In this document: piece by piece, positions 20,851 through 51,786 of the stretch
Numbering within the stretch: position 1 is the stretch's first letter
Layout of the letters: each line of letters begins with the position of its first letter
Assembly: GCA_903825645.1 (NCBI GenBank)
Contig: CAIKBL010000038.1
Coordinates: forward strand, 22,837-86,836
Source: an uncultured Pseudomonadota bacterium
Lineage (GTDB): Bacteria; Pseudomonadota; Gammaproteobacteria; Ga0077536
DNA length: 64,000 bases
Direction: 5' to 3'
Translations under genes and position numbers: made by a program
The notes under the pieces: model-generated
Databases searched by the model: none
The model's input: only the letters and a program-made list of their open reading frames with translations
Told to the model about the DNA's origin: nothing

Positions 20851-22239
20851 ATGCTGCCTCTTTTTTCGCGCCAAGTTATCTATCCACTGCAGGAGATCGC
20901 CTGCAGGCGCCCGACCTTTCCTTGTCTGCGTGATCTGGAGCGATCCCAATGGCTAACGCGCGAAGAGCTCAGAGCCTTGCAACGTCGGCGACTAAACGAC
21001 CTATTAAAAGCGGCTATGGAACACAGTCCATGGCATGCGCGGCGCATACAAGCCGCTGGTTTGGCGGACGCCATAAAATTAGGCTCCCTCAAACTCCAAG
21101 ATCTGCGGCTTTTACCTACGATGACAAAGACCGATGCACGCGCCCATATCGATGAGCTAGTCTGGCATCAGGTTCCAGGAGGGGTTAAACGCTATAACAC
21201 AGGCGGATCCTCTGGGGAGCCCCTTATCTTTTTTTTCGGAAAAGCGCGTCAAGCGTCCGATGCAGCGGGGAGAATGCGAGCGCGGCGTTGGTGGGGGGTC
21301 GAGCCTGGGCAAAAGGAAGTTTACCTTTGGGGCGCCCCCGTCGAGCTTAACAAGACCGATCGGATGCGGACCATCCGCGATCGCCTACTCAATCAACTCG
21401 TTCTGAACGCTTTCGCGATGGGCACCCGGGAAATGGACGAGTACTTGGAGACCCTCCAAGCCTGGCAGCCCGTGTGCATTTATGGTTATGCATCTAGTCT
21501 GGCCCTTCTGGCAGCGCATGCACTCGCCAGTGGCAAGCCGCTAACGTTAAAACGCCTCAAAGTTGTCTGTACTACAGGTGAGACTCTCGATCCGCAGCAA
21601 CGGGCGTTAATATCAAAAACGTTTGGCGCTCCTGTTGCAAATGAGTTCGGGAGCCGCGATATCGGATTCATGGCACATGAGGCCCCTTCAGGGGAGATCT
21701 TGTTTCAGAGCGAATCCCACATCATAGAAATCCTTGATGAAAGCGGCAACGCAGTCCCGCAGGGTGAATTCGGGGAAGCCGTACTAACCGGATTAACTTC
21801 GGCTGCACAACCCTTTATTCGCTACCGAACAGGCGATGTGGTGAGAATGGGCAATCCGTCCGAGAATCAGCGACGCGGTCTTGACGTCATCCGCGAGATC
21901 GCGGGTCGCCAAACGGATTTCGTCGTCTCATCGGATGGGACTATCATTCACGCACTAGCAATTATTTATGTCTTGCGCGCGGTGCCTGGGATTTTTCGAT
22001 TTAAATGCATTCAACATTCTCGCAAATATTTCGAGGTTAAAATCCAACCCAGTCCAGATTGGCAGGATTCGTCTAAGCATCTCATCATGGCGGGGTTAAC
22101 CTCACGTTTGGGGGGCACGGTCCAGATTGAAATCATAGTCGTGGACGAGATCTCAGTTGAAAGTTCCGGTAAACATCGTCACGTCATTAGTCATGTTTCC
22201 CTTTCTGACAGCCTGCATTATGAACCATTAAGCGGATAG
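20851..22239 (+). CDS. CapK/PaaK-like adenylate-forming enzyme
   Basis: A 462-residue member of the phenylacetate-CoA ligase-like family. The phosphate-binding loop YNTGGSSGEPL lies at about residues 115-125, and later motifs include NEFGSRDIGFMAHE and IRYRTGDVVRMG, the adenylation-domain A8-like site. The family activates carboxylic acids as adenylates; CapK-type members occur in capsule and exopolysaccharide loci where they may activate acyl or amino-acyl groups. It starts a tight cassette: the next gene begins 12 bases after its stop. Substrate not determinable. Confidence 0.88.
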   Translation: MLPLFSRQVIYPLQEIACRRPTFPCLRDLERSQWLTREELRALQRRRLNDLLKAAMEHSPWHARRIQAAGLADAIKLGSLKLQDLRLLPTMTKTDARAHIDELVWHQVPGGVKRYNTGGSSGEPLIFFFGKARQASDAAGRMRARRWWGVEPGQKEVYLWGAPVELNKTDRMRTIRDRLLNQLVLNAFAMGTREMDEYLETLQAWQPVCIYGYASSLALLAAHALASGKPLTLKRLKVVCTTGETLDPQQRALISKTFGAPVANEFGSRDIGFMAHEAPSGEILFQSESHIIEILDESGNAVPQGEFGEAVLTGLTSAAQPFIRYRTGDVVRMGNPSENQRRGLDVIREIAGRQTDFVVSSDGTIIHALAIIYVLRAVPGIFRFKCIQHSRKYFEVKIQPSPDWQDSSKHLIMAGLTSRLGGTVQIEIIVVDEISVESSGKHRHVISHVSLSDSLHYEPLSG

Positions 22240-22251
22240 AGCAGGCAGACA

Positions 22252-23469
22252 ATGGGAGTCATCAAGTTAATCAGTTCCGGTTTCCGATACAAACCTTGGC
22301 GCGCCCTGCATTGGCAGTTGTTGTTATCCGATTTATTCCATCGAAAGGGATCCGGCGACGCTGATTTGCCAGGCCATCTGGACGAGGCAATCAATTGGTT
22401 ATGTCGCGCTCAGGATGCGCGAGACGGATTGCCCGATCAAGGTGGCGTTTCCGCGGGATGGAGCTTCGAAGACGGATGGCTGCCGAGTTATCCCGAAACT
22501 ACCGGCTACATTATCGAAACGTTTTTTGCAGCCGCAAGGGTGCTAGGGCGTGCAGATTTGATTCCTCGAGCCGTGAGAATGTTGGAATGGGAATTGACGC
22601 TGCAAGCTCCTGACGGTGCATTTCCTGGCCATTTTGGAGAAGCTGGGAGTCATCCGGTTATCTTCAATCAGGGCCAAATCCTACATGGGCTGCTGTCGGG
22701 CGAACAAGAGACTGGTCGAGATGATTTCCTCACGGCGGCTGTTCGTGCCGGCGAGTGGCTAATCAACCAACAGGATCATGACGGTTGTTTTCGTCGTTAC
22801 GAACATAACGACGTGCCACACGTCTACAACACAAGGGCGATTTGGCCGCTGGCCAAGCTCGGCCGCAGAGTTGGCCGCTCGGATTTCATTGATGCCGCGA
22901 AGCGAAATCTTGACTGGGCCTTAACTCAGCAGACGGACTCCGGCTGGTATCTTTCGAATGCGTTCGTGCCCTCTAAAGATCCATTCACCCATACGATTGC
23001 GTATGCCATTCGCGGTTTTCTTGAATCGGCGACGATACTGCAGGACGTTCGTTATCTGCGATCTGCTGAAATGGCCGCACAGCGTCTCGCCAAATGCCAG
23101 CGAGATGATGGTTGGCTTGCCGGAACCTACGCCGATGAGTGGATACCCAGTGCACGTTATGCCTGCCTCACAGGCATCGCGCAAATGGCCCTCTGCTGGC
23201 TGCGTCTAGAACAGATTACTGGAAACGCGGAATACCGACGTTCAGCCGACAAGGCAATCGGATACGTCCAACGCCACCAAAATCTGACACACCCGGTGCC
23301 GCAGATAAAGGGAGCGATCGCAGGTTCGTTTCCACTGTGGGGACACTACTCTCGTTTCGAATACCCGAATTGGGCTGCGAAATTTTTCGTGGACGCCATC
23401 TTGATGCGAACCTCAGACGAGATCATTCCCCCTATTTTTTCGTCAGCCAACGATCTGGAAATTCGGTGA
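22252..23469 (+). CDS. Alpha/alpha-toroid protein, possible glycan-active or epimerase-like enzyme
   Basis: A 405-residue protein built of repeated helical hairpins typical of six-hairpin glycosidase and terpenoid-cyclase toroids. Repeated Gly/Trp-rich turns are visible: AINWLCRAQDARDGLPDQGG, LEWELTLQAPDGAFPG, EWLINQQDHDGCFRR, LDWALTQQTDSGWYL and LAKCQRDDGWLAG. Acidic and aromatic residues in the turns could line a sugar pocket. No signal peptide, so it is probably cytoplasmic. It begins 12 bases after the CapK-like gene, and its stop overlaps the formyltransferase start (GTGA). Function not assigned; related genes are often annotated only as hypothetical. Confidence 0.8.
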   Translation: MGVIKLISSGFRYKPWRALHWQLLLSDLFHRKGSGDADLPGHLDEAINWLCRAQDARDGLPDQGGVSAGWSFEDGWLPSYPETTGYIIETFFAAARVLGRADLIPRAVRMLEWELTLQAPDGAFPGHFGEAGSHPVIFNQGQILHGLLSGEQETGRDDFLTAAVRAGEWLINQQDHDGCFRRYEHNDVPHVYNTRAIWPLAKLGRRVGRSDFIDAAKRNLDWALTQQTDSGWYLSNAFVPSKDPFTHTIAYAIRGFLESATILQDVRYLRSAEMAAQRLAKCQRDDGWLAGTYADEWIPSARYACLTGIAQMALCWLRLEQITGNAEYRRSADKAIGYVQRHQNLTHPVPQIKGAIAGSFPLWGHYSRFEYPNWAAKFFVDAILMRTSDEIIPPIFSSANDLEIR

Positions 23470-24290
23470 AAAAACTACGCATCATGATTCTTTGTGGCCA
23501 GAGTGCCAGACATCTATATGTTGCTAATGCACTAATCGAGTCCGCCGATGTTTGTGCAATCATCCACGAGTCCGGGACACAATTCAGCTTTAACCGCCTA
23601 AGAAAATATTTGAGCCCACGATTTGTCTTTTCAAAAATCTGGCGATGGATCCGCGATCGGCGTCGATATACGAACAATAATGAGACGCAATTTTTCTTCC
23701 CGCTAACGTCGCCACACCTCCTGCGCCCGGAACTTGTCCGATTCGTGAGTCATATCAATCACCCACAAGTCGTCACCTGGGCAAACGAACTAAATCCCGA
23801 TATGGTTTGTGTGTTTGGAACCTCTCTTATCCGAGGTCCCCTGCTTGAGGCTGGCCAACTCGGAATGGTCAATTTGCACGGCGGTCTGTCTCCAGAGTAT
23901 CGTGGCGCTGATTGCACATTCTGGGCGCTATTCAATGAAGAACCGGAGAAAATTGGCTGCACCTTGCACTTCATCAACGCGGGGATAGACACCGGCGCCA
24001 TCGTTGCTCATGTATGTCCTGAAATACGGGCATCCGACGATGAGTTGACTCTTTTCTGGCGCGCCGTGAAAGAGAGCGCAGCCGTATATGCCGACTTCCT
24101 GAAGAAATCTGCGGAGGGTGCGCGTTTTGGCCTGCCACAGACGGAGAAAGGCCGCCTCTATCAGGTCAAGGATCGTCAATTGCGTCACGAACGAAGTTTG
24201 TCTGCGCGGCTCTCAGCAGGCATGCTGCACGGGCGAGAACTTCCGGCCCGCGTACATTGGTTCATTCCTGAAACCTCCGGCACTCTCTAG
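23466..24290 (+). CDS. Formyltransferase-family protein (Fmt/ArnA-like domain)
   Basis: About 274 residues. The N-10-formyltetrahydrofolate transferase site is intact: Asn136 and His138 in MVNLHGGLSPEYRG, and Asp175 in NAGIDTGAIV. Such enzymes formylate amino groups; those in surface-polysaccharide loci act on amino sugars of nucleotide sugars. I place the start at the GTG at 23466, which overlaps the upstream stop as GTGA; the track extends it 109 codons into the previous gene, without similarity. Cytoplasmic. The context suggests N-formylation of a sugar or of an intermediate made by the neighbouring enzymes. Confidence 0.85.
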   Translation: MKKLRIMILCGQSARHLYVANALIESADVCAIIHESGTQFSFNRLRKYLSPRFVFSKIWRWIRDRRRYTNNNETQFFFPLTSPHLLRPELVRFVSHINHPQVVTWANELNPDMVCVFGTSLIRGPLLEAGQLGMVNLHGGLSPEYRGADCTFWALFNEEPEKIGCTLHFINAGIDTGAIVAHVCPEIRASDDELTLFWRAVKESAAVYADFLKKSAEGARFGLPQTEKGRLYQVKDRQLRHERSLSARLSAGMLHGRELPARVHWFIPETSGTL

Positions 24291-24385
24291 CCCTGACATC
24301 GGATAGCTGTAGAATGGAACTTACATCGAAACTCATCGAGTTTTCCTCGTTCAAAAAATGGCTCTATTGCTGATAGTTGCCCCGC

Positions 24386-26239
24386 ATGACTAGCACATTT
24401 TGCGGCTACTTGTCTGACATGCCCGAGTCTCTCGAGCACTGGTGTGGCTCGTTGCAAAGCAATCGATACACCCCCGTATCGTGGCGGCGTGGCAATGAAT
24501 CGATTACGCCGGCCAGAGCGTCGTTTTTTCTATCGAGATGTATGCCGGAAACAAGACTATGGCTACGCAGCGAAAGCGCTTTGGCGGTCATGATCGGGGC
24601 ACCTTATCGCCTTGCGGAAAACCCAGCATTACCGCGCAGTACTATTGACCTTGCCCGCATTGTCGAAATGGTTTCCAAAGAGGGCCCGGCCGCTCTGGGT
24701 AAGGTAGGGGGATCTTTCGCGATCGCGGTGAGTTTTCCTGATCGAGGTGAATTGCTGTTAGCTGTTGATCGATTTTCTATCGAAAATCTGTTTTACGCTC
24801 TGACTGCCCACGGTATCTCCTATGCGACGCGTGCCTTAGACCTCTTCAAGCACCCGTCGGTTACTGGCGAAATCACGCCTCAATCAGCTTACGATTACTT
24901 GTATTTTCACTGCATTCCGGGCCCTGAAACCGGCTTCCAAGGGATGAAACGACTCCTACCTGGCCACTACCTGCACTTGGTCGATGGTCAACATCGAATC
25001 CGTCCGTTCTGGGCGCCCCGTTACGTCGAGGACAGGCAGACACCTCTATCTGAGCTATCTGCAAAATTACCAGCGATCATCGATGCCGCTGTTGTACAAC
25101 GCTTACCGGACACCAAAACCGCGTGCTTTTTAAGCGGAGGCCTAGACAGTTCAACCCTAACAGGACTCTGCGCAAAAAGACGCCCCGGAGATGTCACAGC
25201 TTTTACGATTGGATTTGATGCCCCGGGCTATGACGAAGTTAAGTTTGCTGAATCCGCCGCAAAGCACTTCAAGGTGAAGCACGAGTGCTACTACGTAAAG
25301 CCGCGAGATATTGTTGAGGCCCTACCACGCATTGTGGACGCGATGGATGCCCCTTTTGGAAACGCCTCTGCAGTACCCACCTACTTTTGCGCCCGCCTTG
25401 CTGCTGAACACGGGTTCACCTCAATTATGGCTGGCGACGGTGGAGACGAGCTTTTTGGCGGAAATAGCCGCTACACAACCCAGCTCTTATTCGAAGCGTA
25501 TTCCTACCTGCCAGAAAAATTCCGCCGGTGGATAGTAGAACCGCTCGCCGATGGGGTACCCGTGTGGGCTCGCCGCGGCATTCCGGGAAAAGCAATCAGC
25601 TATGTGCAACAAGCGCGGATCCCGCTACCCGACCGCCTGATGACCTACAATTTGCTTAACCGGGTGCAACCTGAAAGCTTCTTGACCGAGGAGTTCCTGG
25701 GCCAAATAGATCGGCAGCGCCCAATGTCGTTATTCAGAGACATGTATGATATTTCACCCGACACTGCCGTCGCCAACAAGCTGATGCACCTCGAGTGGCG
25801 ATCGGTATTGGCCGATAGCGACTTGCCCAAAGTGTCACGGACGTGTGCACTAGCCGGAATCGCCGTTAGCTTCCCCATGCTTGACGAACAAGTATTCGAA
25901 TTTGCATCGACCTTGCCATCCAGAGCAAAAGTATCACGTCACACATTGCGCCCCCTGTTTCGGGATGCTTTCAGAGCGTTCTTGCCACAAGCCACCTTGA
26001 ACAAGAGCAAGCAAGGATTTGGCCTGCCTTTCGGCGTCTGGCTGCAAGAAAGTAGCGAATTAAAAGACTTCGCCAACACCTATCTGTTGGTGCTTGAATC
26101 GCGCGGCATTTTAAAGCCCGGCTTCCGAGACAAGTTTCTCTCCGGCACGCTCAACACACATCCCGCATATTTTGGCGTGTTGGCATGGATCCTCATGGTC
26201 TTGGGTATATGGTTTCGAAACCGAGAGACTAATTTTTAA
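24386..26239 (+). CDS. Asparagine-synthetase-like protein lacking the N-terminal nucleophile Cys
   Basis: About 617 residues with the two-domain AsnB layout. The C-terminal PP-loop synthetase has SGGLDSSTLTGL at about residues 250-261, MAGDGGDELFGG, and SKQGFGLPFGVW near the end. Active glutaminase domains of this family need Cys directly after the first Met. Here the protein begins MTSTFCGYLSDMPESLEHW, so position 2 is Thr and the nearest Cys is residue 6. The TTG alternative at 24377 (MPRM) does not help. It may use free ammonia or form another bond, as in beta-lactam synthetases. It follows the formyltransferase by about 95 bases. Confidence 0.87.
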   Translation: MTSTFCGYLSDMPESLEHWCGSLQSNRYTPVSWRRGNESITPARASFFLSRCMPETRLWLRSESALAVMIGAPYRLAENPALPRSTIDLARIVEMVSKEGPAALGKVGGSFAIAVSFPDRGELLLAVDRFSIENLFYALTAHGISYATRALDLFKHPSVTGEITPQSAYDYLYFHCIPGPETGFQGMKRLLPGHYLHLVDGQHRIRPFWAPRYVEDRQTPLSELSAKLPAIIDAAVVQRLPDTKTACFLSGGLDSSTLTGLCAKRRPGDVTAFTIGFDAPGYDEVKFAESAAKHFKVKHECYYVKPRDIVEALPRIVDAMDAPFGNASAVPTYFCARLAAEHGFTSIMAGDGGDELFGGNSRYTTQLLFEAYSYLPEKFRRWIVEPLADGVPVWARRGIPGKAISYVQQARIPLPDRLMTYNLLNRVQPESFLTEEFLGQIDRQRPMSLFRDMYDISPDTAVANKLMHLEWRSVLADSDLPKVSRTCALAGIAVSFPMLDEQVFEFASTLPSRAKVSRHTLRPLFRDAFRAFLPQATLNKSKQGFGLPFGVWLQESSELKDFANTYLLVLESRGILKPGFRDKFLSGTLNTHPAYFGVLAWILMVLGIWFRNRETNF

Positions 26240-26502: not shown

Positions 26503-27387
26503 ATGGCAGTGGCGATTAAGCAGATGATGGATCAAAACAAAACGCGTTCAGGGTGGCCAGCGTACCGATCCCGGCGCGCACCGGGTGTGCCACCTAGCGT
26601 GTTCTACGCTGGGCACGACCAAGAACATGTCGGAGACCGTTTGGGCAGGCCCCGCCGTGTGTACGGGATTTCTGCAGAGAAAAAAACGGCTATCTGCGCG
26701 TTTTCCCTCCGCCATCTGAAGATCGACAGTCGGAAGCTGACGTGGATAATGATCGATGGGGGTGCCGCCTACGTCGGTGAAAGTACCGTTTGCCGGGTGC
26801 CCAGCGAGGCCGATCTCCTATCGGGTTGGAATCGTTCATCGGTATCGAACGGCGAATATAACCTTTGGCCTACTGGATCGAATTGGCATTGCCATAACGA
26901 GATGACGTGTGCCCGGGACCCTGCACGGATTTACCTCCTGCCGAGCTTTATGGAAGCGTGCAGTCGATACATCGTGTATCACAAGCTACTGATCAGCCTC
27001 GACGACGGATCGGCTAAGGAGGCAAGGCCCCGTATTGTCCATGATGACGGCGGTGAGTTCGTTAATCGCGATGATCGTTGCGGTAATCAAGACGCGCAAG
27101 CTGACGATGTAAAAACCGAACCCCGCTATCTCGAATCCCACGGCGTCGTTGAATGGTTCATTGGCACCGTTAGACACGAGACTGATGATGACTACGCCAG
27201 GCTCCTGCAGCACCAACACCAACACCAACACCAACAGCGATTAGATGCAGCTTTAGGTTACATGTCACCCATACGCTGGCATCGTGGAAAGTGGGACGAG
27301 GTTTGCGACGAGCGTGCGCGCCAAACAGCTGCGGCCCCTACGCAGCGAAGAATGACTAACCAACGGCGATTTACTGCGGCAGTTTAA
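26503..27387 (+). pseudogene. Decayed DDE (rve-type) transposase, IS remnant copy 1
   Basis: The 294-codon ORF has pieces of an integrase-core transposase: IVHDDGGEFVNRDDR (Asp motif), HGVVEWFIGTVRHETDDDYA (Glu motif, with EWF in place of ERF) and a C-terminus RLDAALGYMSPIRWHRGKWD. The N-terminal half does not read as an intact domain, and the ORF is interrupted before the C-terminal segment by a CACCAA hexamer repeat, so I call it a pseudogene. It looks most like IS3- or IS481-type transposases, judged by eye. A second remnant of the same 3' end lies at 28647-28860. Confidence 0.75.
27211..27235. repeat. Short tandem repeat (CACCAA)x4
   Basis: Four direct copies of CACCAA inside the transposase remnant, encoding alternating His-Gln. 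It lies where an intact transposase would have a helix before the YNEERL segment; slippage here probably accompanied decay of the gene. Confidence 0.85.
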
Positions 27388-32385: not shown

Positions 32386-33171
32386 TTATGGATTTCTAAC
32401 TCGGTCCAAGATTCTATCTAGGCCATACCGAAGCAATTTCCCAAAGCTTCCATCGTTAGTGCCTAGCGCCATTTTTATCTTGAGGCTCGTCGCCGAATCC
32501 GTCCCGAAAACATCCAATCTCCTGATCCTGAAAAGGTCTGTGAATTGGCGGTTGAATCCAGGTTGGACAGAAAACGCGGCTTTGTAACCAGCGGAAACTG
32601 TGGCCTTTAACACCCGCTCATCATATCTGCCGTAGGGATATGCAAGGTATTCAACTTCGCTATCTAAACTATTACTCAGATCAACCCGGGCGCCAGAAAG
32701 CTCGGCTTCGAGCTCGCCATCTGAGAGCGTCGATAAATCCGGATGTGTTCGAGTGTGCGATTGAAAAGTGAATCCTTTTTTCTTGAGATCGCGAATACTA
32801 TTCCAATCCATTAGCGGGTAAGTATTTCCGCTGGGGTTCTCTCCGTGGCACCAATTATCGCGCTGTCCTATTAATTTACTGACGAGAAAAACGGTGGCTG
32901 GCCAACCAAGTTCGCTCAGTATCGGCGCCGCATACTGGTGAACTCCCGAGTACCCGTCGTCGAATGTGAGTAAAAACGAGCGGCTTTCCAACACTAAAAG
33001 ACCTTTCAACCAAGCGAAAAAATCGTCCAGCTCAATAGCGTGCCACCCAGCTTTTTTCAACATCAACATGTGCGACAAAAATTGACTCGGATGTACGCAA
33101 TATTTGCGTTCCCAACTGCTATTCGCCTCTCCCACGCGGTGGTACATTAAGACGGGTATGCGATTTTCCAT
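32386..33171 (-). CDS. Polysaccharide deacetylase (NodB/CE4 family)
   Basis: A 261-residue protein with the CE4 motifs: IPVLMYHRVGE at the start, LTFDDGYSGVH (motif 1, catalytic and metal Asp), FQSHTRTHPDLS (motif 2, two metal His) and YLAYPYGRYDE (motif 3). It removes N- or O-acetyl groups from a polysaccharide using a divalent metal. No signal peptide is seen, so it may act on a cytoplasmic or membrane-facing intermediate. A second deacetylase of another subfamily lies in the XrtA operon (50809-51672). It follows the GT2 gene at 33253-34251 on the same strand. Confidence 0.9.
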   Translation of the reverse strand: MENRIPVLMYHRVGEANSSWERKYCVHPSQFLSHMLMLKKAGWHAIELDDFFAWLKGLLVLESRSFLLTFDDGYSGVHQYAAPILSELGWPATVFLVSKLIGQRDNWCHGENPSGNTYPLMDWNSIRDLKKKGFTFQSHTRTHPDLSTLSDGELEAELSGARVDLSNSLDSEVEYLAYPYGRYDERVLKATVSAGYKAAFSVQPGFNRQFTDLFRIRRLDVFGTDSATSLKIKMALGTNDGSFGKLLRYGLDRILDRVRNP

Positions 33172-38183: not shown

Positions 38184-39133
38184 GATTGCGCGCCTCGCAA
38201 CATGCTCATTACGCGACGAATCGAATCAACACTAGGTTTATCTATCAGCAGGGGAAAAGCCGTCACGAAAGCGACCATCCGACGCCCTGATTTTGACAAC
38301 GCATAGGCCAAATTCAAACGCGCGGCTCGAAAACGTCTGATGACGCCTCGTCGCACAGGAAGGGGGAACTCAACCGATGCGCCTAATAGGGCACGCAACG
38401 TCCGGAGATTTTCGAATTGAGCGCTCACGTGATTTTTTCTGGTTGCGCTACCATGATGCACGACGTAGACCCCTAATTTTTTTCGGCACACACCAACCCG
38501 CTTACTAACTGCAACTAAGCGGGCGAGAAAATGGACGTCTTCGCAAACCTGAAAACCGCCAGGATATCCGCCCAACGTCAAGAAGGTCGTGCGGCGAACA
38601 CTTAACGTATGGGTGTCGCCAAAGTGGTCAGCTACAAATTCTTCGAAGTCGCCGCTTTCCATAACAAAGCGTTCAAACGCTCCGGCTTTCTTCGCAATAA
38701 TCCGCCCCGAAATGTGCGATGCCATCGACGAACCCAGATACTCGCCGTCCGGTCCCTGATAGTCATAGTCCCCAGTCAAGAAATCGAGATCCGGGTCTTC
38801 GGCGATCCATGTCGCATGCGATCGAATGCGGTCTGGATAATAGAAATCATCAGCATCCAGAAAGGCTATCCAATCACTCGTCGCGATATCTACGCCTTTG
38901 TTGCGGGCTCTTGAGACACCCCGATTTTCTTCAAAACGATGGTATCTAACGCGCTTGCGGTACCGTTCCACGATTTCCCGCGTATTGTCGGAAGATGCAT
39001 CATCGACGACGACGATCTCAACTTCCGGGCCATGTTGAGCAAGAACAGAATCGATTGCTCGCGATAACCACTCACCCGAATTGTACGTCGGAATAACTAC
39101 CGAGAATGTGGGCAAAACTCCGAGCTTCTTCAT
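38180..39133 (-). CDS. GT2-family glycosyltransferase
   Basis: About 317 residues. The track starts at 39196, but the ATG at 39133 (MKKLGVLPTFSVVIPTYN) overlaps the upstream stop as ATGA and matches the family start better. Motifs: VVVDDASSDNTREIV, AFLDADDFYYPDRIRSH (DxD) and VCEDVHFLARL, the acceptor-side ED motif. Cytoplasmic sugar transferase of the polysaccharide pathway. Confidence 0.92.
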   Translation of the reverse strand: MKKLGVLPTFSVVIPTYNSGEWLSRAIDSVLAQHGPEVEIVVVDDASSDNTREIVERYRKRVRYHRFEENRGVSRARNKGVDIATSDWIAFLDADDFYYPDRIRSHATWIAEDPDLDFLTGDYDYQGPDGEYLGSSMASHISGRIIAKKAGAFERFVMESGDFEEFVADHFGDTHTLSVRRTTFLTLGGYPGGFQVCEDVHFLARLVAVSKRVGVCRKKLGVYVVHHGSATRKNHVSAQFENLRTLRALLGASVEFPLPVRRGVIRRFRAARLNLAYALSKSGRRMVAFVTAFPLLIDKPSVDSIRRVMSMLRGAQS

Positions 39134-40323
39134 GCTAGCAAGTACTCTAAAAGGAGTATCGGAACCGCCAAGCCGGTAAGTTTCGCTATTCGCCAAAACT
39201 GACGGACATCTTTCAGCCTAGCAAGCATAGCGCGACAGCGTATCCCTATCGAATTAGAAATCCAGTCAGGATCACGAGACACCAATAAATCTGCGAGTTC
39301 CACGGTGGACAAGAACCGAACACTTGGCACCGCCGACAGAATTGTTTCAATGGCGGTATCCAGCTGATTGAACGCCTCGGCATCGGCCCTTGGGCCCACA
39401 TAATTGAAACGATGCGTTTCAATCAGCGCCGGTCGAGATAAATACATACGACATTTTATCTCGGTCACTAATCGTTCAATCGAATGCCCAAGCGCCGGCT
39501 CAAAGTAGATATCCCGCACGACATAAATCACATTCGACTCTCCCCTCTGCCCATTGAGAACATCTCTATCGGGTCGATCGGGCTGACCACCGGAATCTCT
39601 ACCCCGATAACGACAACCGGGGGTTACCACGACTCTTACGCCGATTTCAGCCCATGCTGCCTCTACACGAGAGTCCCAGATGAAGGTCGTGGGCACCGCC
39701 ACTTTGGGGGTCTCGTGAAAAATACAATTCCAGAGATCTCGCTCTTGGGCAATTACCGCAGTGATCTCCGGGAGAGGTAAATCTTTGCTTGGTAACACCG
39801 ATCCATTGACCCAAGAAGATTGAAGCGCATTAGGTAGAGATTCCGTCCAAAGGCCACCTTCACTCTCCTGAAACGCCATGGAATTGCCTCGGTCCGAACT
39901 CTGTTTCAACACCGACAGACTGAAATGAAAAAGTCCATGCAACTGAAAAGAGAATATTTTTTCCTTTGCGCCTTTCTCCATCACCGCTCGGAGACTGTTA
40001 TTCTGCGGGTCGCCGAGATAAGAAAGTGCGGGCATCCCTTGTTCTTCGTGATTTTTTTTTGACTCGGAGAAATTACCCAAAATAATTCCCAGCGTCATTA
40101 CCGGCTTTTCACCGAATTTATTTTGGTGCCGACACAAGACTTGGGAAACCGCTTCCAATCCATGAACTTGCTCGATCGGACCCGCCCCCCAATCGTCGCT
40201 TTCGAAAATGACAACGGGCTGCAGCAAGACAGGTTCACGCCATCGAGCCGCTAATTCGCGGCCATAGATAATGAGCACCGAACCCCATAGAAAAATAACA
40301 AGAATAGAACTCAAAGAAACCAA
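39130..40323 (-). CDS. Membrane-anchored deacetylase-superfamily-like protein
   Basis: A 397-residue protein with an N-terminal membrane anchor (about residues 5-22) and possibly a C-terminal one (LTGLAVPILLLEYLLA). The segment VVIFESDDWGAGP resembles the first Asp motif of the glycoside hydrolase/deacetylase barrel, and FQLHGLFHFS and ALIETHRFNYVG could supply further metal ligands. These are the positions expected for a CE4-like barrel, but the motifs are not canonical. A role in trimming or deacetylating the glycan is likely but not proven. Start 10 bases after the sulfotransferase stop; stop overlaps the next start. Confidence 0.72.
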   Translation of the reverse strand: MVSLSSILVIFLWGSVLIIYGRELAARWREPVLLQPVVIFESDDWGAGPIEQVHGLEAVSQVLCRHQNKFGEKPVMTLGIILGNFSESKKNHEEQGMPALSYLGDPQNNSLRAVMEKGAKEKIFSFQLHGLFHFSLSVLKQSSDRGNSMAFQESEGGLWTESLPNALQSSWVNGSVLPSKDLPLPEITAVIAQERDLWNCIFHETPKVAVPTTFIWDSRVEAAWAEIGVRVVVTPGCRYRGRDSGGQPDRPDRDVLNGQRGESNVIYVVRDIYFEPALGHSIERLVTEIKCRMYLSRPALIETHRFNYVGPRADAEAFNQLDTAIETILSAVPSVRFLSTVELADLLVSRDPDWISNSIGIRCRAMLARLKDVRQFWRIAKLTGLAVPILLLEYLLA

Positions 40324-40333
40324 CGATCTGTCC

Positions 40334-41248
40334 TCAGTAACCTAACTGAGCCGCAATATCTGCGACCATTGGCAGCGCCCGCTCTACTTTTACTGCATGC
40401 TTTCCTTCCCGCCATTTATCCGCTTTTATTTCCGAAAATGCGTTATACGGAATTTCCAGCACACCCTCGCAATGTTTCTCAATCCTTGTTCCAAAAGACA
40501 GGTCACACCTCGCGAAGATATCCCTAAAAGCGTTAACCGGGTTATGCAAGATTGTCTCGTAATGAATTTCTATCCAGCGAGCCGGCTCTATAGATGATTT
40601 AGCCGCCAGAAGCGCCGAATTCATGGCGCGATATTGGAAAGCACAAATTTCTTCTATAGGTCTTGTGACATAATCGCGCCAGCCATCAGCGACAAAAAAA
40701 CACCATCGCTTGTAGACGCCATCAATATCTACTTTCTCAGGTAGACTTTCCGACCAGGTCGCGAACTCGCCGGGCCGACCCCACCCTTCGATGAGCGAGC
40801 TTATATTATCTGCAGGCGATCGTTTGACAAAAACATAAACAGCGTCTGGAAAGAGCGCGTTCAGATAGGGGACGCAGAGACCATTCTGATTATTTTTATC
40901 GACCCACCGGTCAAATCCGGTACGCGAAAAAAAATATTCACTCACGAAATCCCGCTCATTTATCGATGCGTCCGCAGAAGTTAACGCGTGCGAGTCCCAT
41001 TCTTTGTTTTTTAACGGATGCAGGTCAGTCCAAAAATCGTGGGTTTCTCGATTGAGGCTACCTATCTCCGACGATTCCGATATGGTCTTGTAGACGAGGG
41101 TCGTTCCCGCTCGTGAACAGCCCACGACAAAAATTGGTTTTTTAGCCGAGGTTCGGTTTAACTTCCAATGAAGGCGTCTGATACCGATCGCTAGTTCTCT
41201 CGCTTCATGGTCCAACGTTTTGGAAATTTTTTTTAAAATTTCGCTCAT
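40334..41248 (-). CDS. Sulfotransferase family protein
   Basis: A 304-residue protein with the PAPS-binding P-loop KPIFVVGCSRAGTTLVYKT (residues about 36-54) and the 3'-phosphate-binding segment VFVKRSPADNISSLIEGW. Such enzymes move sulfate from PAPS to hydroxyl or amino groups; in polysaccharide loci they make sulfated glycans. No signal peptide or membrane segment is seen. It sits 97 bases after the O-ligase gene in the same direction. PAPS synthesis genes are not in the window. Confidence 0.88.
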   Translation of the reverse strand: MSEILKKISKTLDHEARELAIGIRRLHWKLNRTSAKKPIFVVGCSRAGTTLVYKTISESSEIGSLNRETHDFWTDLHPLKNKEWDSHALTSADASINERDFVSEYFFSRTGFDRWVDKNNQNGLCVPYLNALFPDAVYVFVKRSPADNISSLIEGWGRPGEFATWSESLPEKVDIDGVYKRWCFFVADGWRDYVTRPIEEICAFQYRAMNSALLAAKSSIEPARWIEIHYETILHNPVNAFRDIFARCDLSFGTRIEKHCEGVLEIPYNAFSEIKADKWREGKHAVKVERALPMVADIAAQLGY

Positions 41249-41345: not shown

Positions 41346-42599
41346 TTACGTCGTCGCCCGCAACGCCGATATCCCGCCGACTTGTTTAGCGAACAACGCC
41401 TGAGGAGCACGGATTGTTCTTTCCAAAACCACGACGAGCGCGACCAAGAGATAAAAAAAATCGAAATATCCGAGCCCGAGGAAGGCCCCGCAAGTGGCAT
41501 AACCGACTAGACTCACTTGAATCATGAGCGCCAGATCCTGCGCCCACTTCAACTCGGGATCAGACCCTGCTTTTTTTTGCACATATTTTGCTTTTGAATA
41601 AGCCATCCCGCCTAACAGAAGAAAAATCCCAAGGCCCGGGTACCCTTGCTCGCCGAGTATTTGAAAATAAATGCTGTGGGCGTCAGTACCATTGACGAAA
41701 ATAACAGCTCCAAAGCCCCCGCCATGGAATCTTTTGTTGGCAAGGACATAGGCCGCCTGCCATGCATCGAGGCGCTCCATAGCTGACTGGTCTTGTTCGT
41801 ATGTGTTTATAGTGCTCATGCGATCGAACCAAGATTGAGGCATCAATACAGGCATCGCGCAAACGAGCGCAACTGCTATCAGGAGGGGTATCAGTCGCTT
41901 CCGGGATTTCAATAAAAACACCATCCCCATTGCGACCAGACCCACCATCGCGCCGCGAGAATGGGTCCCTATAATGGCAATTGGCGTAAAAATCATGGCG
42001 CCATACAGCCCCAATCGCGGCCACCGCTGCTTCGTGCTCATAACCAGATACCAAATCAAGGGGACAGTCATGACAAGGGCGAGGCCCAGTTCATTATTGC
42101 CGCCAATGAAGGTACCATCTGGTCCGTAGACTCGGTTAGCGCCCCCGCTTAATACAGTCCAAATTCCTCCCTTATAACCGTAGAATCCCAAAGAAATAGC
42201 TATCGTCCAGACGAGAATCTCAATTCGCTTCCTGTCGGATGTCAGCATTAATGTCAAAAGGATGCCGAGCTGGATACGCCAAATTTTGTCCCACTGCAGC
42301 CAAGCATAGTCAGGTGACAAGGAAAATACGGTGGTGATAAACATCCAAAGGACAAACACGATGAGCACTACTACCTCACGACTGAAGGGTATTTTTTTTG
42401 TATCCTGTGACATGACATAAGAGAGAACAGTCGTAATAAAAACGATTTCGGCGAACGGGAAACGAAGTGAAAAACCCCAGGCCAAGCGATGAGGATTCAT
42501 GAGACTGAGCCACGTCCACATCACGAGCCCGGTGAACGGGCGCTTTAGGATGAACGGCAGAGAGCCGAAAACTATCAACGTAATTACAATGTCACGCAT
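41346..42599 (-). CDS. Probable O-glycosylation ligase, exosortase A-associated
   Basis: A 417-residue multi-pass membrane protein of the Wzy/O-antigen-ligase type. The start RDIVITLIVFGSLPFILKRP with WTWLSLMNPHRLAWGF is characteristic of the family found beside exosortase A genes (TIGR03097 type, from memory). There are about ten membrane segments and a large periplasmic loop containing the RLDAWQAAYVLANKRFHGGG and DAHSIYFQILGEQGYPGL segments typical of the catalytic loop. It is thought to attach glycan to protein or to polymerise it outside the inner membrane. It lies 45 bases after a GT4 gene in the operon. Confidence 0.9.
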   Translation of the reverse strand: MRDIVITLIVFGSLPFILKRPFTGLVMWTWLSLMNPHRLAWGFSLRFPFAEIVFITTVLSYVMSQDTKKIPFSREVVVLIVFVLWMFITTVFSLSPDYAWLQWDKIWRIQLGILLTLMLTSDRKRIEILVWTIAISLGFYGYKGGIWTVLSGGANRVYGPDGTFIGGNNELGLALVMTVPLIWYLVMSTKQRWPRLGLYGAMIFTPIAIIGTHSRGAMVGLVAMGMVFLLKSRKRLIPLLIAVALVCAMPVLMPQSWFDRMSTINTYEQDQSAMERLDAWQAAYVLANKRFHGGGFGAVIFVNGTDAHSIYFQILGEQGYPGLGIFLLLGGMAYSKAKYVQKKAGSDPELKWAQDLALMIQVSLVGYATCGAFLGLGYFDFFYLLVALVVVLERTIRAPQALFAKQVGGISALRATT

Positions 42600-42644: not shown

Positions 42645-43844
42645 TCAACCTATCAGCTGAAAGGCAAGCAGAAGTTGTGTAATTCTTTTTTCCCAAACGT
42701 TTTCTTTGGCATACGCCAGTATTTTCGCCCGATCCCAGTCTTTCGCGAGCGATGCGTGGAGTATTTCGAAAAGCGCGTTGTCGTTATTAAACGGATATGT
42801 TTTCCCAATATCCTCGTCACGAATCACCTCCGCGTTGCCGCCTACATCACTGGCCACGACCGGAACACCACAAGCCATTGATTCAAGAATGACATTAGCC
42901 CAGCCTTCATTACTGGACGCTAAAACTGACACGTTAGCGGCTGATAGTGGTATGCGCAATTTACTAGGTTCAAGTGGACCCAGAAATCGGACGTGATTTT
43001 CCAAAGCGAGTTCTGAAACCTGACTTTTAAGCTTTTGGGACCAGTCTCCCTCCGGAGAAGGGCCGCCGACGATCAAATAGACTAAATTTTTGTAGGTCCG
43101 AATCAGTCTCGGTAGTTGAGCAATAACACGGTGAAACCCTTTTCGCTCCACGAGGGCTCCGACCGTTATCAGGACCTTAGCGTCGAGCGGTATGTTGAGT
43201 TTAATACGGGCGTCTTCCTGCTTGCTCGGATAAAAAATGCTCGTATCAACCCCATTCCCTACAACCTCGACTTTCTCAGCAGAGATCCCCTGTGCCAGGA
43301 CTAGCTGCCGCAAGGACTCGGAAACTGTAAAAATCCGGTGAGCGTCTTGAAGGCAGCGAAGAATTTTCCGACGAAGTGCCGGCACCATCAGATGCCGACT
43401 CTCCGTTCCGCGCAAGGTGACAAAGAATGGAATCTTGAGCCGGGCACTCAGTAAGCTCGCAGCGTATCCATCTGGATAGGCAAAATGGGCATCGATGAAT
43501 TCACATCTACCCTGCTGCCGGAGGCGCCTGATGATGGGTAGCGCTGATAACGCCATGGAAAGGGCGTCGTGGCGCCGACCTAGGAAGGGGACTGAGAACG
43601 CACGTGGCCGGTAGACTTCAATATCCGATTGGCGTTCGAAGCGGCTCCCCAAGATCCGGTAAGATGGCCTAATCGCCCGCAAGACGGATTGTCCGGGGAA
43701 CCACGCCTGCGGACTAATGACAGTGACGGGATGGTGTTGTGCGACCCTAAACATTCGTTCGCGAATAAATAGTCCGGCACCGGGCTGCGCTGCGCTCGGG
43801 AAGAGGTGACTTAAGACAACCAATGGCTTGCGGTGACTCATCAC
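42645..43844 (-). CDS. GT4-family glycosyltransferase
   Basis: A 399-residue GT-B enzyme: VVLSHLFPSAAQPGAGLFIR at the N-terminus, VVGNGVDTSIFYPSKQEDAR, VGALVERKGFHRVIAQLPRL and the donor site NEGWANVILESMACGVPVVA. Start and previous stop overlap (ATGATGA). It probably adds one sugar of the repeat unit. It resembles the sugar transferases that recur in exosortase A loci. Confidence 0.92.
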   Translation of the reverse strand: MMSHRKPLVVLSHLFPSAAQPGAGLFIRERMFRVAQHHPVTVISPQAWFPGQSVLRAIRPSYRILGSRFERQSDIEVYRPRAFSVPFLGRRHDALSMALSALPIIRRLRQQGRCEFIDAHFAYPDGYAASLLSARLKIPFFVTLRGTESRHLMVPALRRKILRCLQDAHRIFTVSESLRQLVLAQGISAEKVEVVGNGVDTSIFYPSKQEDARIKLNIPLDAKVLITVGALVERKGFHRVIAQLPRLIRTYKNLVYLIVGGPSPEGDWSQKLKSQVSELALENHVRFLGPLEPSKLRIPLSAANVSVLASSNEGWANVILESMACGVPVVASDVGGNAEVIRDEDIGKTYPFNNDNALFEILHASLAKDWDRAKILAYAKENVWEKRITQLLLAFQLIG

Positions 43845-45067: not shown

Positions 45068-46963
45068 TCACCGTTCATTCTGGCGCCTCAGAAAGGACTC
45101 AAACATCAGCACCGACCAGATGGGGACACTGAAATCCCGCACTCCGGCAACGTGCTGCCGCATCATCTGCTTGAGATAGGCGAGATCGAACATCCCGGTG
45201 TCCGATAACACCGGACTTTCCAGCGCATTGTCCACACGTTTTCTTAAAGGGCCCCGGAACCATTGCGCGAGTGGCACAGAAAACCCCATTTTTGGCCGAT
45301 ACAGTATTTCGTTAGGGAGGTAAGGTTCAAACCCCTTTTTAAGCACGAATTTCCCCTCACGTCCGTTGAGCTTGAGATGTGTGGGTAATGTCGCCGCCCA
45401 TTCGGTCAGCCTATGATCCAGAAGCGGCTCGCGTACCTCCAAGCTGTTGGCCATACTCGCGCGGTCGACTTTTGTTAAAATATCACCAGCAAGATATGTT
45501 TTTAAATCGAGATACTGCACACGCGCCAATGGATCTTCACTCTGGCAGTTGGCCCCGTGCCTCCTCAGTACCTCCACTGCATGATAGCCGGCGAGCGTTT
45601 GACGCATCGGCCTGCTAAAGATCCGGCTTCGCACGTTGTCGCCCAACAGGGATACGCTCGAGAAATACCCAGCGACCGAGTCTTTGGCGAGCGCCTCCAA
45701 CGTCGATTTCGCGCGGAATATCTTGGGTGCCCAGTCGGCCTTCGGATAGCATCGTCCGAGTGCACCAAACACGGTGGCGCGCAGGGACAATGGCGCCAAC
45801 GCGCGGAGACGCTCTTCATAGACATGCCAGCGGTATCGCCGGTATCCACCGAAATTCTCGTCACCACCATCGCCGGAGAGCGCAACGGTCACGGTTTTAC
45901 GCGCCAGCTCGCAAACTCGAAATGTCGGCAAGGCGGAGGAGTCCGCGTAAGGCTCGTCGTAGATGGCTGATAACTTGTCGATGAGATCAAAATCCCCTGC
46001 ATCGACGATTCCGACGGTATGACGGGTATGGTATTGGGCAGCGACGCGGCTCGCGTAGGCTGATTCGTCGAACGCCTGCTCACCAAACCCTATCGAGCAG
46101 GTATTAACCGGCGTATCACTCAACCCTGCCATCATGGCGACGACGGCACTGGAATCCACCCCACCAGACAAGAACGCGCCGAGCGGCACTTCGGACACAA
46201 GACGGATTTTAACCGCCTCCCGCACCCGCCGCACACATTCTTCCGCCGCCTCCGGTGCGCTAATTTTTTGCACCTTGTCAAAGTGGACATCCCAATATCT
46301 CGTGGGCAAGGCCAACGGTTGGCCCACACAAAGTGATAGCGAATACCCCGGTTCAAGCTTTAATGCGGCGCGGTATATCGTGCGTGGCTCGGGGATGTAA
46401 CCGTACGCAAAATAATCTTCCACGGCATACGGATCTATATCGCGGGAAAGGCCAGGGTGCGCCATGATGCCTTTTAATTCCGAACTAAAAACCAAAAAAT
46501 CGTCTGGCAGAATCGCATAATAGAGTGGCTTCACCCCAAGGCGATCACGCGCCATAAATAACGTTTGCCGATTTCGGTCCCAGACAGCAAAAGCAAACAT
46601 GCCGCGAAATCGCTCGACACAGCGAGGACCCCATGTCTCCCAGGCGTGCACGATGACTTCCGTGTCGGAACGCGTCCGAAAGACATGACCGGCTGCCTGC
46701 AGTTCTGGTACGAGATCTTGAAAATTATAAATTTCGCCATTAAACACGACGATGACCGACCCATCTTCATTACCCAGTGGTTGTTGTCCAGAAGACAGAT
46801 CGATAATTGAAAGGCGCTTGTGCCCCAATCCAACCCCGGGCTCTAGGTGAAGACCCGTTTCATCAGGACCCCGATGATGCTGTGTCTGATTCATACGGGC
46901 GAGTAACGCTCGGTCAATCGCGCGCGAGGCTCTTAGATCGAATATCCCGACGATTCCACACAT
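45068..46963 (-). CDS. XrtA/PEP-CTERM system amidotransferase (AsnB-like)
   Basis: A 631-residue protein with an intact glutaminase start, MCGIVGIFDLRAS (Cys2 nucleophile), RGPDETGLHLEPGVGLGHKR and FNGEIYNF, and the synthetase PP-loop LGAFLSGGVDSSAVVAMM. This is the amidotransferase that recurs next to exosortase A (TIGR03108 type). It probably transfers glutamine-derived nitrogen to a carboxyl group, perhaps of a uronic acid or of an amino-acid decoration. In contrast with the AsnB-like gene at 24386, all catalytic parts are here. It starts 3 bases after the xrtA stop. Confidence 0.95.
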   Translation of the reverse strand: MCGIVGIFDLRASRAIDRALLARMNQTQHHRGPDETGLHLEPGVGLGHKRLSIIDLSSGQQPLGNEDGSVIVVFNGEIYNFQDLVPELQAAGHVFRTRSDTEVIVHAWETWGPRCVERFRGMFAFAVWDRNRQTLFMARDRLGVKPLYYAILPDDFLVFSSELKGIMAHPGLSRDIDPYAVEDYFAYGYIPEPRTIYRAALKLEPGYSLSLCVGQPLALPTRYWDVHFDKVQKISAPEAAEECVRRVREAVKIRLVSEVPLGAFLSGGVDSSAVVAMMAGLSDTPVNTCSIGFGEQAFDESAYASRVAAQYHTRHTVGIVDAGDFDLIDKLSAIYDEPYADSSALPTFRVCELARKTVTVALSGDGGDENFGGYRRYRWHVYEERLRALAPLSLRATVFGALGRCYPKADWAPKIFRAKSTLEALAKDSVAGYFSSVSLLGDNVRSRIFSRPMRQTLAGYHAVEVLRRHGANCQSEDPLARVQYLDLKTYLAGDILTKVDRASMANSLEVREPLLDHRLTEWAATLPTHLKLNGREGKFVLKKGFEPYLPNEILYRPKMGFSVPLAQWFRGPLRKRVDNALESPVLSDTGMFDLAYLKQMMRQHVAGVRDFSVPIWSVLMFESFLRRQNER

Positions 46964-46966
46964 GCG

Positions 46967-48550
46967 TCAAGGATCTCCGACTGGATTTTTTCGCGAAGCT
47001 TGCACAAAACCGCGCGTCACGCCCGGCTCACTGCCCTCCAGTAAGCTCTGGAGGCGCCGTCTGACGTCATCCTCATGCCCGTCCTGTTCGACCAACGCGT
47101 ACAGCAGCATAATGCCGCCCGCACTGCCGTGTCCCAACAGACGACTTTCAGCTTCATAGAGCTTGGCGAGTAACTTGCTCGACGTGAAATGGCCGTCTAC
47201 CCAATAGATCTGCCACACCAACATCTCGCGTCCGTCGGACCGACGCTTCAATATTGTCTCGGAGACGGCGTGTATTTCTTTCAAGGTCAACGGATATGTA
47301 GTCGCCGATAAGGATCTCCACGGCTCGTTTTTCTCCCATACAAGCTCGTTGGCGGCGTGGACGATCTCAGCTGTTTGAGACTGTTCCGGATACCACGCGA
47401 TGAGGAGTCCAGCCATGTCCGCGTCTTGGACAAAGGCCTTGCTGAAATAAAGCGGCGTCCCAACGAAATGAGGCTGCCACTGATAATCCGGCGGAGAAAC
47501 CGCTCGCCAAGGACTACTGGGAGATATTAACTGCGCGTCGAAGGCAAGCGCGGGGTGCGCAACGGGTGCGCTTGCATAGCCCCCTAATAATGGCCAGACG
47601 TTAACCGCCAGCAGCGTAACTAGTACGGCACCTAAGGACGAGACCAGCGGGATCTCTTTAGCGGACCGCGATTTCACGGCGGGATCTGCCGGCAATACGG
47701 CGAGCACGGGCTCGCTCCAGATCATCCCGACCGTCATGAGGAGGAAAATAACGATCCCAAAAAACACCCAACCATAGATGTAATGATCTATCCCGAGCGC
47801 AAGCTTCATCCCGCTCAAATGCGCAATCATGACGATTCCATAGGCTCGCAACCAATTCGCAAAGACCGCGACAAGAACGGCCACGCCCATGAAAGTGACG
47901 CGGCGCCAGATTGAACGGTAATTAAGATAGGCGAACAAGATCCCAACCGTAACGGTGGCGATCAGATAACGCATCCCGCTGCAGCCACTCACCACCGACC
48001 ACGTGCCGCTCGGGATGATGAACAGACTACCCTCACGATAAACAGGCATGCCCGTTACCCGTAGCGCATAAACCACAAAATCCGCCGTCATGTCGACCAT
48101 GTAAGGGGTCAAGCCATCGCCCATCGGCACGGCAAGGAAAAGAAACCCGAGCGGGAACGCGATGGTCTCGCACCATTCCCATCCCATGATGAAGAGGATG
48201 GCACTGAGAATCATCGCCACCAGCATCAGCTCTTGCACAACATGGACGTCCGCCAATAAGGCCAGCGTCCAGATAGCGCCGAAAACACCCAGCGGGCCGA
48301 GCGCCCACCAAGCCGGCGGCGCGTGAATCGCCGAAAGCTCTTGTTTTTTCTGATAGATAAGGTAGAGGGAGATCAGCGGCACTAGCCAACCATGCGCATA
48401 CGTCTCGGAGGTGTTCCAGACATGCACCATCGCGTCGAGGGTATGGCGGTAGGCCAACAGCATAAAGAAAACCACGACGAGCGTCAGGTGCCATCGCTGG
48501 AACGACAGCGTAGACGTCCCAGACCTCCTACTTCGATTTGTCAGGGACAT
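46967..48550 (-). CDS. xrtA: Exosortase A with C-terminal EpsI-like domain
   Basis: A 527-residue protein. The N-terminal 300 residues form the polytopic exosortase. The three catalytic residues can be read: Cys190 in VVSGCSGMRYL, Arg235 in FANWLRAYGIV and His256 in LGIDHYIYGW. The remaining 220 residues after the last membrane segment are a periplasmic EpsI-like domain (ISPSSPWRAVSPPDYQWQPH and VQIYWVDGHF regions). Exosortase cleaves PEP-CTERM tails at the outer face of the inner membrane and releases or transfers the protein. In this window the probable substrate is the PEP-CTERM protein at 62903-63799. The gene abuts the preceding glycosyltransferase gene without a gap. Confidence 0.96.
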   Translation of the reverse strand: MSLTNRSRRSGTSTLSFQRWHLTLVVVFFMLLAYRHTLDAMVHVWNTSETYAHGWLVPLISLYLIYQKKQELSAIHAPPAWWALGPLGVFGAIWTLALLADVHVVQELMLVAMILSAILFIMGWEWCETIAFPLGFLFLAVPMGDGLTPYMVDMTADFVVYALRVTGMPVYREGSLFIIPSGTWSVVSGCSGMRYLIATVTVGILFAYLNYRSIWRRVTFMGVAVLVAVFANWLRAYGIVMIAHLSGMKLALGIDHYIYGWVFFGIVIFLLMTVGMIWSEPVLAVLPADPAVKSRSAKEIPLVSSLGAVLVTLLAVNVWPLLGGYASAPVAHPALAFDAQLISPSSPWRAVSPPDYQWQPHFVGTPLYFSKAFVQDADMAGLLIAWYPEQSQTAEIVHAANELVWEKNEPWRSLSATTYPLTLKEIHAVSETILKRRSDGREMLVWQIYWVDGHFTSSKLLAKLYEAESRLLGHGSAGGIMLLYALVEQDGHEDDVRRRLQSLLEGSEPGVTRGFVQASRKNPVGDP

Positions 48551-49750: not shown

Positions 49751-50812
49751 TCAGGCGAGATAAGGGGAAATCAGCGGTCCCAAAAAATTAGCGAGCGGGA
49801 GGGGAAGTCGTTTCCAGACATCAATAGCCAGAGAGTATTGGGGATTATTGGGGCTCCGATTCGGGAATTCTTCGGCCGTCACCAGATGATATTCGTACGC
49901 TAGCGGGGTGGGCTCGAAGCCCCAGTTTTTCTTGAAGGCAAAAGAGCCGGAACCCGTCTTGCTTCGACCGTAATCAAAGCGCGTCAGACCCGATTCCGTT
50001 GCCCGTCGCATCACTTCCCAATACATGAAGTCGTACGCCTTCAGGTTCCGTGCCAGCGGCAAGCCACCGCCGTAATACGGCATGATGGTGTTTTTGTATT
50101 TGAAGGAAAAAACAGACGCTACCGGCGTTTTCCCATGATAGACCGTCGTGATTTCGGCGCGAGTCGCAAACAGCTCGTGCAGCGTCTGAAAATATCGTCG
50201 GGGAAACACCGGTGTCCCCAGATTACGCACACTGGTCGCATAAATTTTAAAAAACACGTCCAGATCAGGTGCCTCGCGACTGATAAGTCCTGCCTCAATG
50301 CCTTTACGGACGACTGCGCGTTGCTTGCGGGGGATAGCCTTCATATTCCCTTCCACGTCTGGCGCGAGAGTCCGACTGAAGTTGACGTAGACCGCATCTT
50401 TGCAAGGGAGATGGTCGAACGCTCGTCTGGAATGACGCAATTCAAGATAACCGACGCGGGCGCGTTCAGCTCGCTGGACGGCTTCGTCAATCAAAGCAGT
50501 CCCGGCTGCACTGTCCTGCGCGAGGATCCCGGCCTCAACGCAAAAGGGCAGAGACACCATGGCATCGCCGAAAATGCGGCTACTGAGACGCATGATCGGC
50601 AGCACCCCGACAATCTGCCCGTGCCGCCGGGCAACAAGGTAGTGCGCTTCAAAACCCACACTGCGCGTCAGGACGTCACGCCATTGAAACAGATGGAAAA
50701 AACTGCCCGAGGGGTGCTCGTCGACGAATTTATTCCAAGCCATTTCATCCGCGGGCTGCGCTTCCGAAACCCGCACCACGGACAGGTCTTCCGCGGATAA
50801 CGTCGGACTCAC
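49751..50812 (-). CDS. FemAB-related protein, XrtA/PEP-CTERM system-associated
   Basis: About 353 residues of the FemAB/GNAT-like superfamily. Motifs: SGSFFHLFQWRDVLTRSVGF near the N-terminus, AIPRKQRAVVRKGIEAGL, YYGGGLPLARNLKAYDFMYW and RFDYGRSKTGSGSFAFKKNW. FemAB proteins transfer aminoacyl groups from tRNA; the exosortase-linked group (TIGR03019 type) may add amino acids to the glycan. The track starts at 50854, inside the previous gene; I use the GTG at 50812, which overlaps its stop as GTGA. Confidence 0.93.
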   Translation of the reverse strand: MSPTLSAEDLSVVRVSEAQPADEMAWNKFVDEHPSGSFFHLFQWRDVLTRSVGFEAHYLVARRHGQIVGVLPIMRLSSRIFGDAMVSLPFCVEAGILAQDSAAGTALIDEAVQRAERARVGYLELRHSRRAFDHLPCKDAVYVNFSRTLAPDVEGNMKAIPRKQRAVVRKGIEAGLISREAPDLDVFFKIYATSVRNLGTPVFPRRYFQTLHELFATRAEITTVYHGKTPVASVFSFKYKNTIMPYYGGGLPLARNLKAYDFMYWEVMRRATESGLTRFDYGRSKTGSGSFAFKKNWGFEPTPLAYEYHLVTAEEFPNRSPNNPQYSLAIDVWKRLPLPLANFLGPLISPYLA

Positions 50813-51672: not shown

Positions 51673-51786
51673 GCTGCTCCGAACCAACGGGTGGGTGACA
51701 GCGAGAACTATCACTAAACGCTGCGCGCCAGTAATTCCAGCATGCTAGGAAACTATCGGTCTAATAGGGGAGAGCTTGAGCCTCTG

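Follow-up and report, generated by a model that had tools for sequence, protein, structure and literature searches.

What do four adjacent genes of an uncultured gammaproteobacterium of the GTDB lineage Ga0077536 make, and do they belong together? The genes lie in a window of 64,000 nucleotides, the whole stretch of DNA that was analysed (contig CAIKBL010000038.1, positions 22,837 to 86,836), from a source genome of 4.13 Mb that is 99.5% complete. They had been described, in a sequence-only reading, as a compact cassette that could build an acylated or N-formylated decoration. All four are intact and stand in a row on the plus strand: CapK-1 (20851-22239, ATG start), a PaaK/CapK-like adenylate-forming ligase with the motifs TGGSSGEP, EFGSRD, RYRTGD and SGKHR intact; Tor (22252-23469, ATG start), an (alpha/alpha)6 toroid protein of the N-acylglucosamine 2-epimerase/unsaturated glucuronyl hydrolase (AGE/UGL) fold; Fmt (23466-24290, GTG start), a PF00551 formyltransferase with Asn136, His138 and Asp175; and AsnB2 (24386-26239 from an ATG, or from a TTG at 24377), an asparagine-synthase-like amide synthetase with a degenerate glutaminase domain and an intact synthase domain. 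The co-directional layout given earlier was confirmed, with 12 bases between CapK and Tor, a Fmt start that overlaps the Tor stop (GTGA) and 95 or 86 bases before AsnB2, depending on its start codon, and the family names agree with Pfam and NCBIfam scans. Since no terminator-like site was seen on the plus strand between the genes, and promoter-like sites among them were no more frequent than in shuffles, a single transcript of all four is possible.

The first three genes were found to be a conserved three-gene unit, CapK-Tor-Fmt (hereafter the triad), within which Tor and Fmt form a specific pair. Among the genomes of 144 relatives, three encode a Tor of 58-61% identity, and in all three the triad is intact and its order unchanged. 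A search of GTDB species genomes with Tor alone as bait gave 80 named loci, from Thiobacillus, Candidatus Nitrotoga, Thauera, Aromatoleum, Sulfuricella, Marichromatium, Methylotuvimicrobium, Methylobacter, Desulfacinum and others, the fixed order thus reaching from Beta- and Gammaproteobacteria to Desulfacinum. Fmt is the next gene downstream of Tor in 76 of the 80 loci; three of the others end soon past Tor (L063, L075 and L081), and in L090 the open reading frame (ORF) caller had extended the Fmt ORF over Tor. The two genes overlap in 55 of the 76 (median gap -4 bases), and CapK lies upstream of Tor in about 74 of the 80 (median gap 20 bases), with exceptions that include L092, where the order is Tor-Fmt-CapK, L081 and short contigs. 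The reciprocal test gave the same picture: the Fmt subfamily occurs in nine of 369 sampled genomes of the class, precisely those nine hold a high-scoring Tor, which adjoins Fmt in each (Fisher 1.6e-12), and all nine carry the CapK-1 subfamily. Of the supposed recurrence of four families, then, the part that stood is a fixed, tightly packed CapK-Tor-Fmt set (74-76 of 80 loci), but AsnB2 is mostly absent from it.

The usual home of the triad is the exosortase A (XrtA) locus, between a glycosyltransferase gene and the gene for the TIGR03097 O-glycosylation ligase (Olig), the usual gene order being AsnB1, stp3, GT4c, CapK, Tor, Fmt, Olig, AsnB2 (on the opposite strand), h304, h397, GT2d and GT4b. 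In the 50 well-flanked loci, those with at least 8 kb on either side, an XrtA-system marker was present in 36, Olig in 40 and AsnB2 in 14, while in the class sample XrtA scored above cut-off in seven of the nine triad genomes as against 65 of the 360 others (p 2e-4). These frequencies also answer the earlier question of whether the set always adjoins xrtA, which it does not. Most XrtA genomes, for their part, are without Tor-Fmt. At about 37-58 kb, the minus strand of the window holds a near-complete XrtA locus. It includes Olig (41346-42599), which comes after Fmt in most other loci; the glycosyltransferase GT4c (42645-43844), which precedes CapK in many of them; AsnB1 (45068-46963), an XrtA system amidotransferase (TIGR03108, 1044.7 bits) with an intact MCG; XrtA itself (46967-48550), with an EpsI domain; and PDA1 (50809-51714), an XrtA system polysaccharide deacetylase (TIGR03006). 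GT4c adjoins Olig at 41-44 kb, indicating that the usual slot of the triad is empty here, and the window triad lies on the plus strand about 15-18 kb away. An ORF at 26503-27387 without a Pfam match resembles, by eye, a degraded integrase-type transposase, and it may be linked to relocation of the cassette.

CapK is the least specific member of the triad. It scores 93 bits against the DVU1553 family and 50-64 bits against PaaK families, reaching none of the NCBIfam equivalogs (PaaK, DVU1553 and FlxY; best 93 bits, cut-off 300), and its best solved relatives are PaaK-type ligases. The three motif classes tested (nucleotide-binding, RTGD and C-terminal lysine) are all found in the window copy, and the four adenylation motifs are complete here and in 64 of 73 copies, the remainder having three. 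A sister subfamily, CapK-2, occupies the same GT4c-Olig slot in XrtA loci that are without Tor-Fmt (L168, L170, L171, L176, L178 and L180, usually with an AsnB2 homologue near). In the CapK tree, copies with and without Tor-Fmt separate with two label changes, against 14 in shuffles, and XrtA is found in 35 of 44 genomes with either kind of CapK, compared with 37 of 325 others (p 8e-21). CapK (NE2015, 'possible CapK protein') had also been listed as the 15th best phylogenetic-profile match for PEP-CTERM (Haft 2006, PMC1569441). Taken together, the shared slot, the separation in the tree and the 2006 listing indicate that CapK is a general XrtA-locus gene and Tor-Fmt an insertion beside it, and the view of CapK as a gene specific to the set had to be given up, its sister subfamily filling an identical slot. 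A paper on Nitrosococcus oceani mentions, of the set, the CapK gene only, within a glycosyltransferase operon.

AsnB2 is a loose companion of the triad. Other loci that contain it almost always have it downstream of Olig and in the reverse orientation, and it goes with both CapK types, being present in about nine of 16 CapK loci without Tor-Fmt; a four-gene operon or cassette was ruled out by its absence from other loci or its place on their other strand. Its scores are 217 bits against Asn_synthase (PF00733), weak against GATase_7, 229 bits against the XrtA amidotransferase TIGR03108, below the cut-off of 816.9 that AsnB1 passes, and 76 bits against lasso cyclases. The glutaminase nucleophile Cys2 and the NGE motif were not found in AsnB2 and 13 relatives, which start with MTS, MDG, MTG, MAG, MSG, MNT or MQQ, and both are intact in AsnB1 of the same window. 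The ATP-pyrophosphatase synthase domain (SGG.DSS) is kept. Judged by these motifs the family is glutaminase-dead, and the earlier picture of an ordinary amidotransferase does not fit it. Since the nucleophile has been lost, AsnB2 would, where present, form an amide without glutamine, joining a carboxylate to an amine that is not ammonia released from glutamine. Lasso peptide cyclases and beta-lactam synthetase likewise keep the synthase domain and lack Cys2, but by score AsnB2 is closest to the XrtA amidotransferase profile.

What the triad might do is suggested first by Fmt, which scores 57.5 bits against Formyl_trans_N (PF00551; Pfam cut-off 26.1) and whose nearest solved relatives are the sugar N-formyltransferases ArnA and GDP-4-amino-4,6-dideoxymannose formyltransferase. 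The intact formyl-transfer site noted in the window proved general, with Asn, His and Asp kept in all 76 Fmt copies (motifs NLHGG..P.YRG and GID.G). As the three families recur as a set, usually in XrtA loci, and the site is invariant, it is natural to read the set as one for an N-formyl decoration; that much of the earlier proposal stood, but AsnB2 is no part of the set that would make it. We give a probability of roughly one half to the reading that the triad is a tailoring module of an XrtA-associated glycan, either an exopolysaccharide or the PEP-CTERM linking sugar, in which Fmt N-formylates an exposed amine. A polysaccharide deacetylase would expose the amine of a hexosamine, Fmt would move a formyl group onto it from N10-formyltetrahydrofolate, as its family and intact site suggest, and Tor, judging from its fold and gene coupling, would bind, present or remodel the acceptor. 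CapK would activate a separate carboxylate as an acyl-adenylate, for a further acyl group on this glycan.

Deacetylation is favoured as the source of the amine because the source genome contains no full-length DegT-type sugar aminotransferase, partial weak matches only. Two polysaccharide deacetylase genes lie in the window, PDA1 and PDA2 (32386-33171, minus strand), the latter with a PgaB/IcaB-like N-terminal region. An orthologue of PDA2 adjoins the triad in L015/L076, and PDA2 is a candidate provider of the free amine. In Thauera MZ1T, deacetylation of the exopolysaccharide is required for flocculation (PMC4784049), and the triad is present in Thauera sp. 2A1 (L027).

Tor is predicted with high confidence to be an (alpha/alpha)6 barrel of the glucuronyl-hydrolase/2-epimerase fold. 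Its AlphaFold2 model has a predicted local distance difference test score (pLDDT) of 93, with template-modelling scores of 0.69 to unsaturated glucuronyl hydrolase (GH88) and 0.65 to cellobiose 2-epimerase (AGE). Identity to these is 9-16% and no profile alignment is significant, which sets Tor apart as a separate family. Its Pfam match is GH127, barely over cut-off, and other members match squalene-cyclase repeats; both are attributed to the common toroid shape. By inspection no signal peptide is evident, and Tor is probably a cytosolic, sugar-binding protein. Among 16 distant Tor loci that were examined, the immediate, mostly overlapping neighbour in eight is an amine-acylating enzyme: an AAC(3)-type N-acetyltransferase (L007/L126, L124/L175), an ATP-grasp ligase (L127 and L009, weakly in L131), a FemAB/GNAT protein (L128) or a distant formyltransferase (L011, L133). 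L018 has an AAC(3)-type gene one gene away from Tor. These neighbours are a lead, not a proof, for a role of Tor in handling the acceptor in N-acylation. More tentatively, and with the odds against it, Tor might found an intracellular (alpha/alpha)6 family of acceptor partners for at least four unrelated amine-acylating folds (formyltransferase, AAC(3)-type N-acetyltransferase, ATP-grasp ligase and FemAB/GNAT), which with Fmt would yield an N-formyl amino sugar in the XrtA glycan or in the target compound of exosortase A. Homologues of 38-41% identity are also found on two haloarchaeal megaplasmids (L204:7923-9083 and L205:8007-9050), where in both cases a short hypothetical gene of ~70 codons comes next and a sulfatase lies near.

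Several observations weigh against a formylating module of the XrtA glycan and against the role given in it to Tor. Fourteen of the 50 well-flanked loci are without an XrtA marker within about 10 kb, which rules out a strict tie of the triad to XrtA, and Methylotuvimicrobium buryatense (G282) carries the triad with no XrtA above cut-off; both suggest that the triad also serves other glycans. Two loci (L037 and L101) have Tor-Fmt without CapK nearby, and in two more (L091 and L103) CapK is divergent. DegT-type aminotransferases are present in most other triad genomes. The profile alignments of Tor to the AGE (PF07221) and GH88 (PF07470) sets, none of them significant, do not place its catalytic residues, whether as the His pair of AGE or as the Asp pair of GH88, and no amine-acylating neighbour was recognised in the other half of the 16 distant loci or in the two haloarchaeal plasmid loci.

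The competitor that survives best, itself unlikely, holds that the substrate of Fmt is a nucleotide-activated 3- or 4-amino sugar (cf. ArnA, VioF and WbtJ) and that the formamido product is then incorporated, with Tor and CapK as unrelated tailoring. It would account for the nearest solved relatives of Fmt, ArnA and the GDP-perosamine-type formyltransferases, for the DegT-type genes of the other triad genomes and for a UDP-sugar epimerase/decarboxylase-like gene in the Nitrotoga loci. However, the cognate aminotransferase is missing from the source genome, G319 is also without DegT at a stricter cut, no aminotransferase-like gene was seen by eye among the clusters recurring beside the triad, and the overlap of tor and fmt would stay unexplained. 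Fmt shares PF00551 and the Asn-His-Asp site with the sugar N-formyltransferases (ArnA N-terminal domain, GDP-perosamine formyltransferase and WbtJ), but it reaches only about 65 bits to ArnA and its N-terminal 90 residues are distinct.

A clearly less probable proposal has CapK adenylate an amino acid whose amine Fmt formylates, by analogy with the F-A module of linear gramicidin synthetase, the N-formyl-aminoacyl group being placed on the XrtA glycan, perhaps via FemAB. CapK and Fmt are near neighbours, Fmt matches LgrA formylation domains at 46 bits, and the FemAB transferase of XrtA loci has been compared with VimA, for serine or glycine transfer (PMC7468200). The set has no carrier domain, though, Fmt scores ArnA above LgrA, and Tor sits between the two genes, the invariant pair being Tor-Fmt and not CapK-Fmt, as L037 and L101 also illustrate; the sister CapK, moreover, works without Fmt. 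Least probable of all is a chance neighbourhood of generic surface-polysaccharide genes that were moved jointly and are uncoupled in function, for although CapK, Fmt and AsnB families are common in polysaccharide loci, the window copy lies off its usual slot and AsnB2 is loosely linked, the fixed order with overlap in about 74-76 of 80 loci and the nine-for-nine reciprocal co-occurrence make it unlikely for CapK-Tor-Fmt, leaving it as the best view only of the place of AsnB2 in the window.

The closest known setting of the triad is the XrtA/PEP-CTERM locus (Haft 2006; TIGR03109, TIGR03097, TIGR03108, TIGR03006 and TIGR03019), in which it usually lies, but Tor and Fmt match no XrtA-system NCBIfam model and are not mentioned in the 2006 paper (PMC1569441). 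The type IX Wbp/Vim linking-sugar pathway (Veith 2020, PMC7468200) has a deacetylase, a FemAB/VimA-like transferase and a WbpS-like AsnB1 in common with XrtA loci and offers an amide-decorated amino sugar as a likeness; it is without a formyltransferase or toroid protein, and the link to XrtA is a speculation of that paper. No description of Tor-Fmt in XrtA loci was found in the literature, which is weak evidence since subscription papers were mostly outside the search. The earlier remark that this is not a described pathway thus holds for the set, but not for CapK, already listed in 2006. Tailoring of an exosortase-associated polysaccharide is known in kind; the CapK-Tor-Fmt module is apparently undescribed, and the pairing of toroid and acyltransferase could prove to be more than a variant of known tailoring.

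Exosortase A and PEP-CTERM systems are widespread in floc- and biofilm-forming bacteria. A gene pair that predicts a formamido group would give a handle on the XrtA glycan that mass spectrometry and nuclear magnetic resonance can detect, and a toroid protein that pairs with varied amine-acylating enzymes suggests that the N-acylation of polysaccharides includes a step so far unrecognised. The triad carrier Methylotuvimicrobium buryatense 5G is genetically tractable, which makes the formylation idea testable.

Among neighbouring genes, P625 (28886-30763, plus strand) encodes a 625-aa protein without a Pfam or NCBIfam match and is an optional companion of the triad. In four other genomes a relative of 34-41% identity adjoins the triad or lies close to it; in one of the same genus (L014/L065) it is directly upstream of CapK, and in L030, L076 and L089 it lies nearby. 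Its model is of low confidence (pLDDT 64), with a beta domain plus an alpha toroid, and has no convincing PDB match. Sixteen of the 80 triad loci encode an unnamed secreted protein with PPYC...HTHHYC motifs (L036:19628-20425). Two further genes of the window are conserved in XrtA loci: h397 (39130-40323), which matches no family, and h304 (40334-41248), a Sulfotransfer_3 protein, from which the glycan is possibly sulfated. Near the locus, a protein with a C-terminal PEP-CTERM motif (62903-63799) is a likely exosortase substrate. Outside the window, the source genome has a second exosortase-like gene (G000:C51:250914-251681; 168.5 bits, below the XrtA cut-off).

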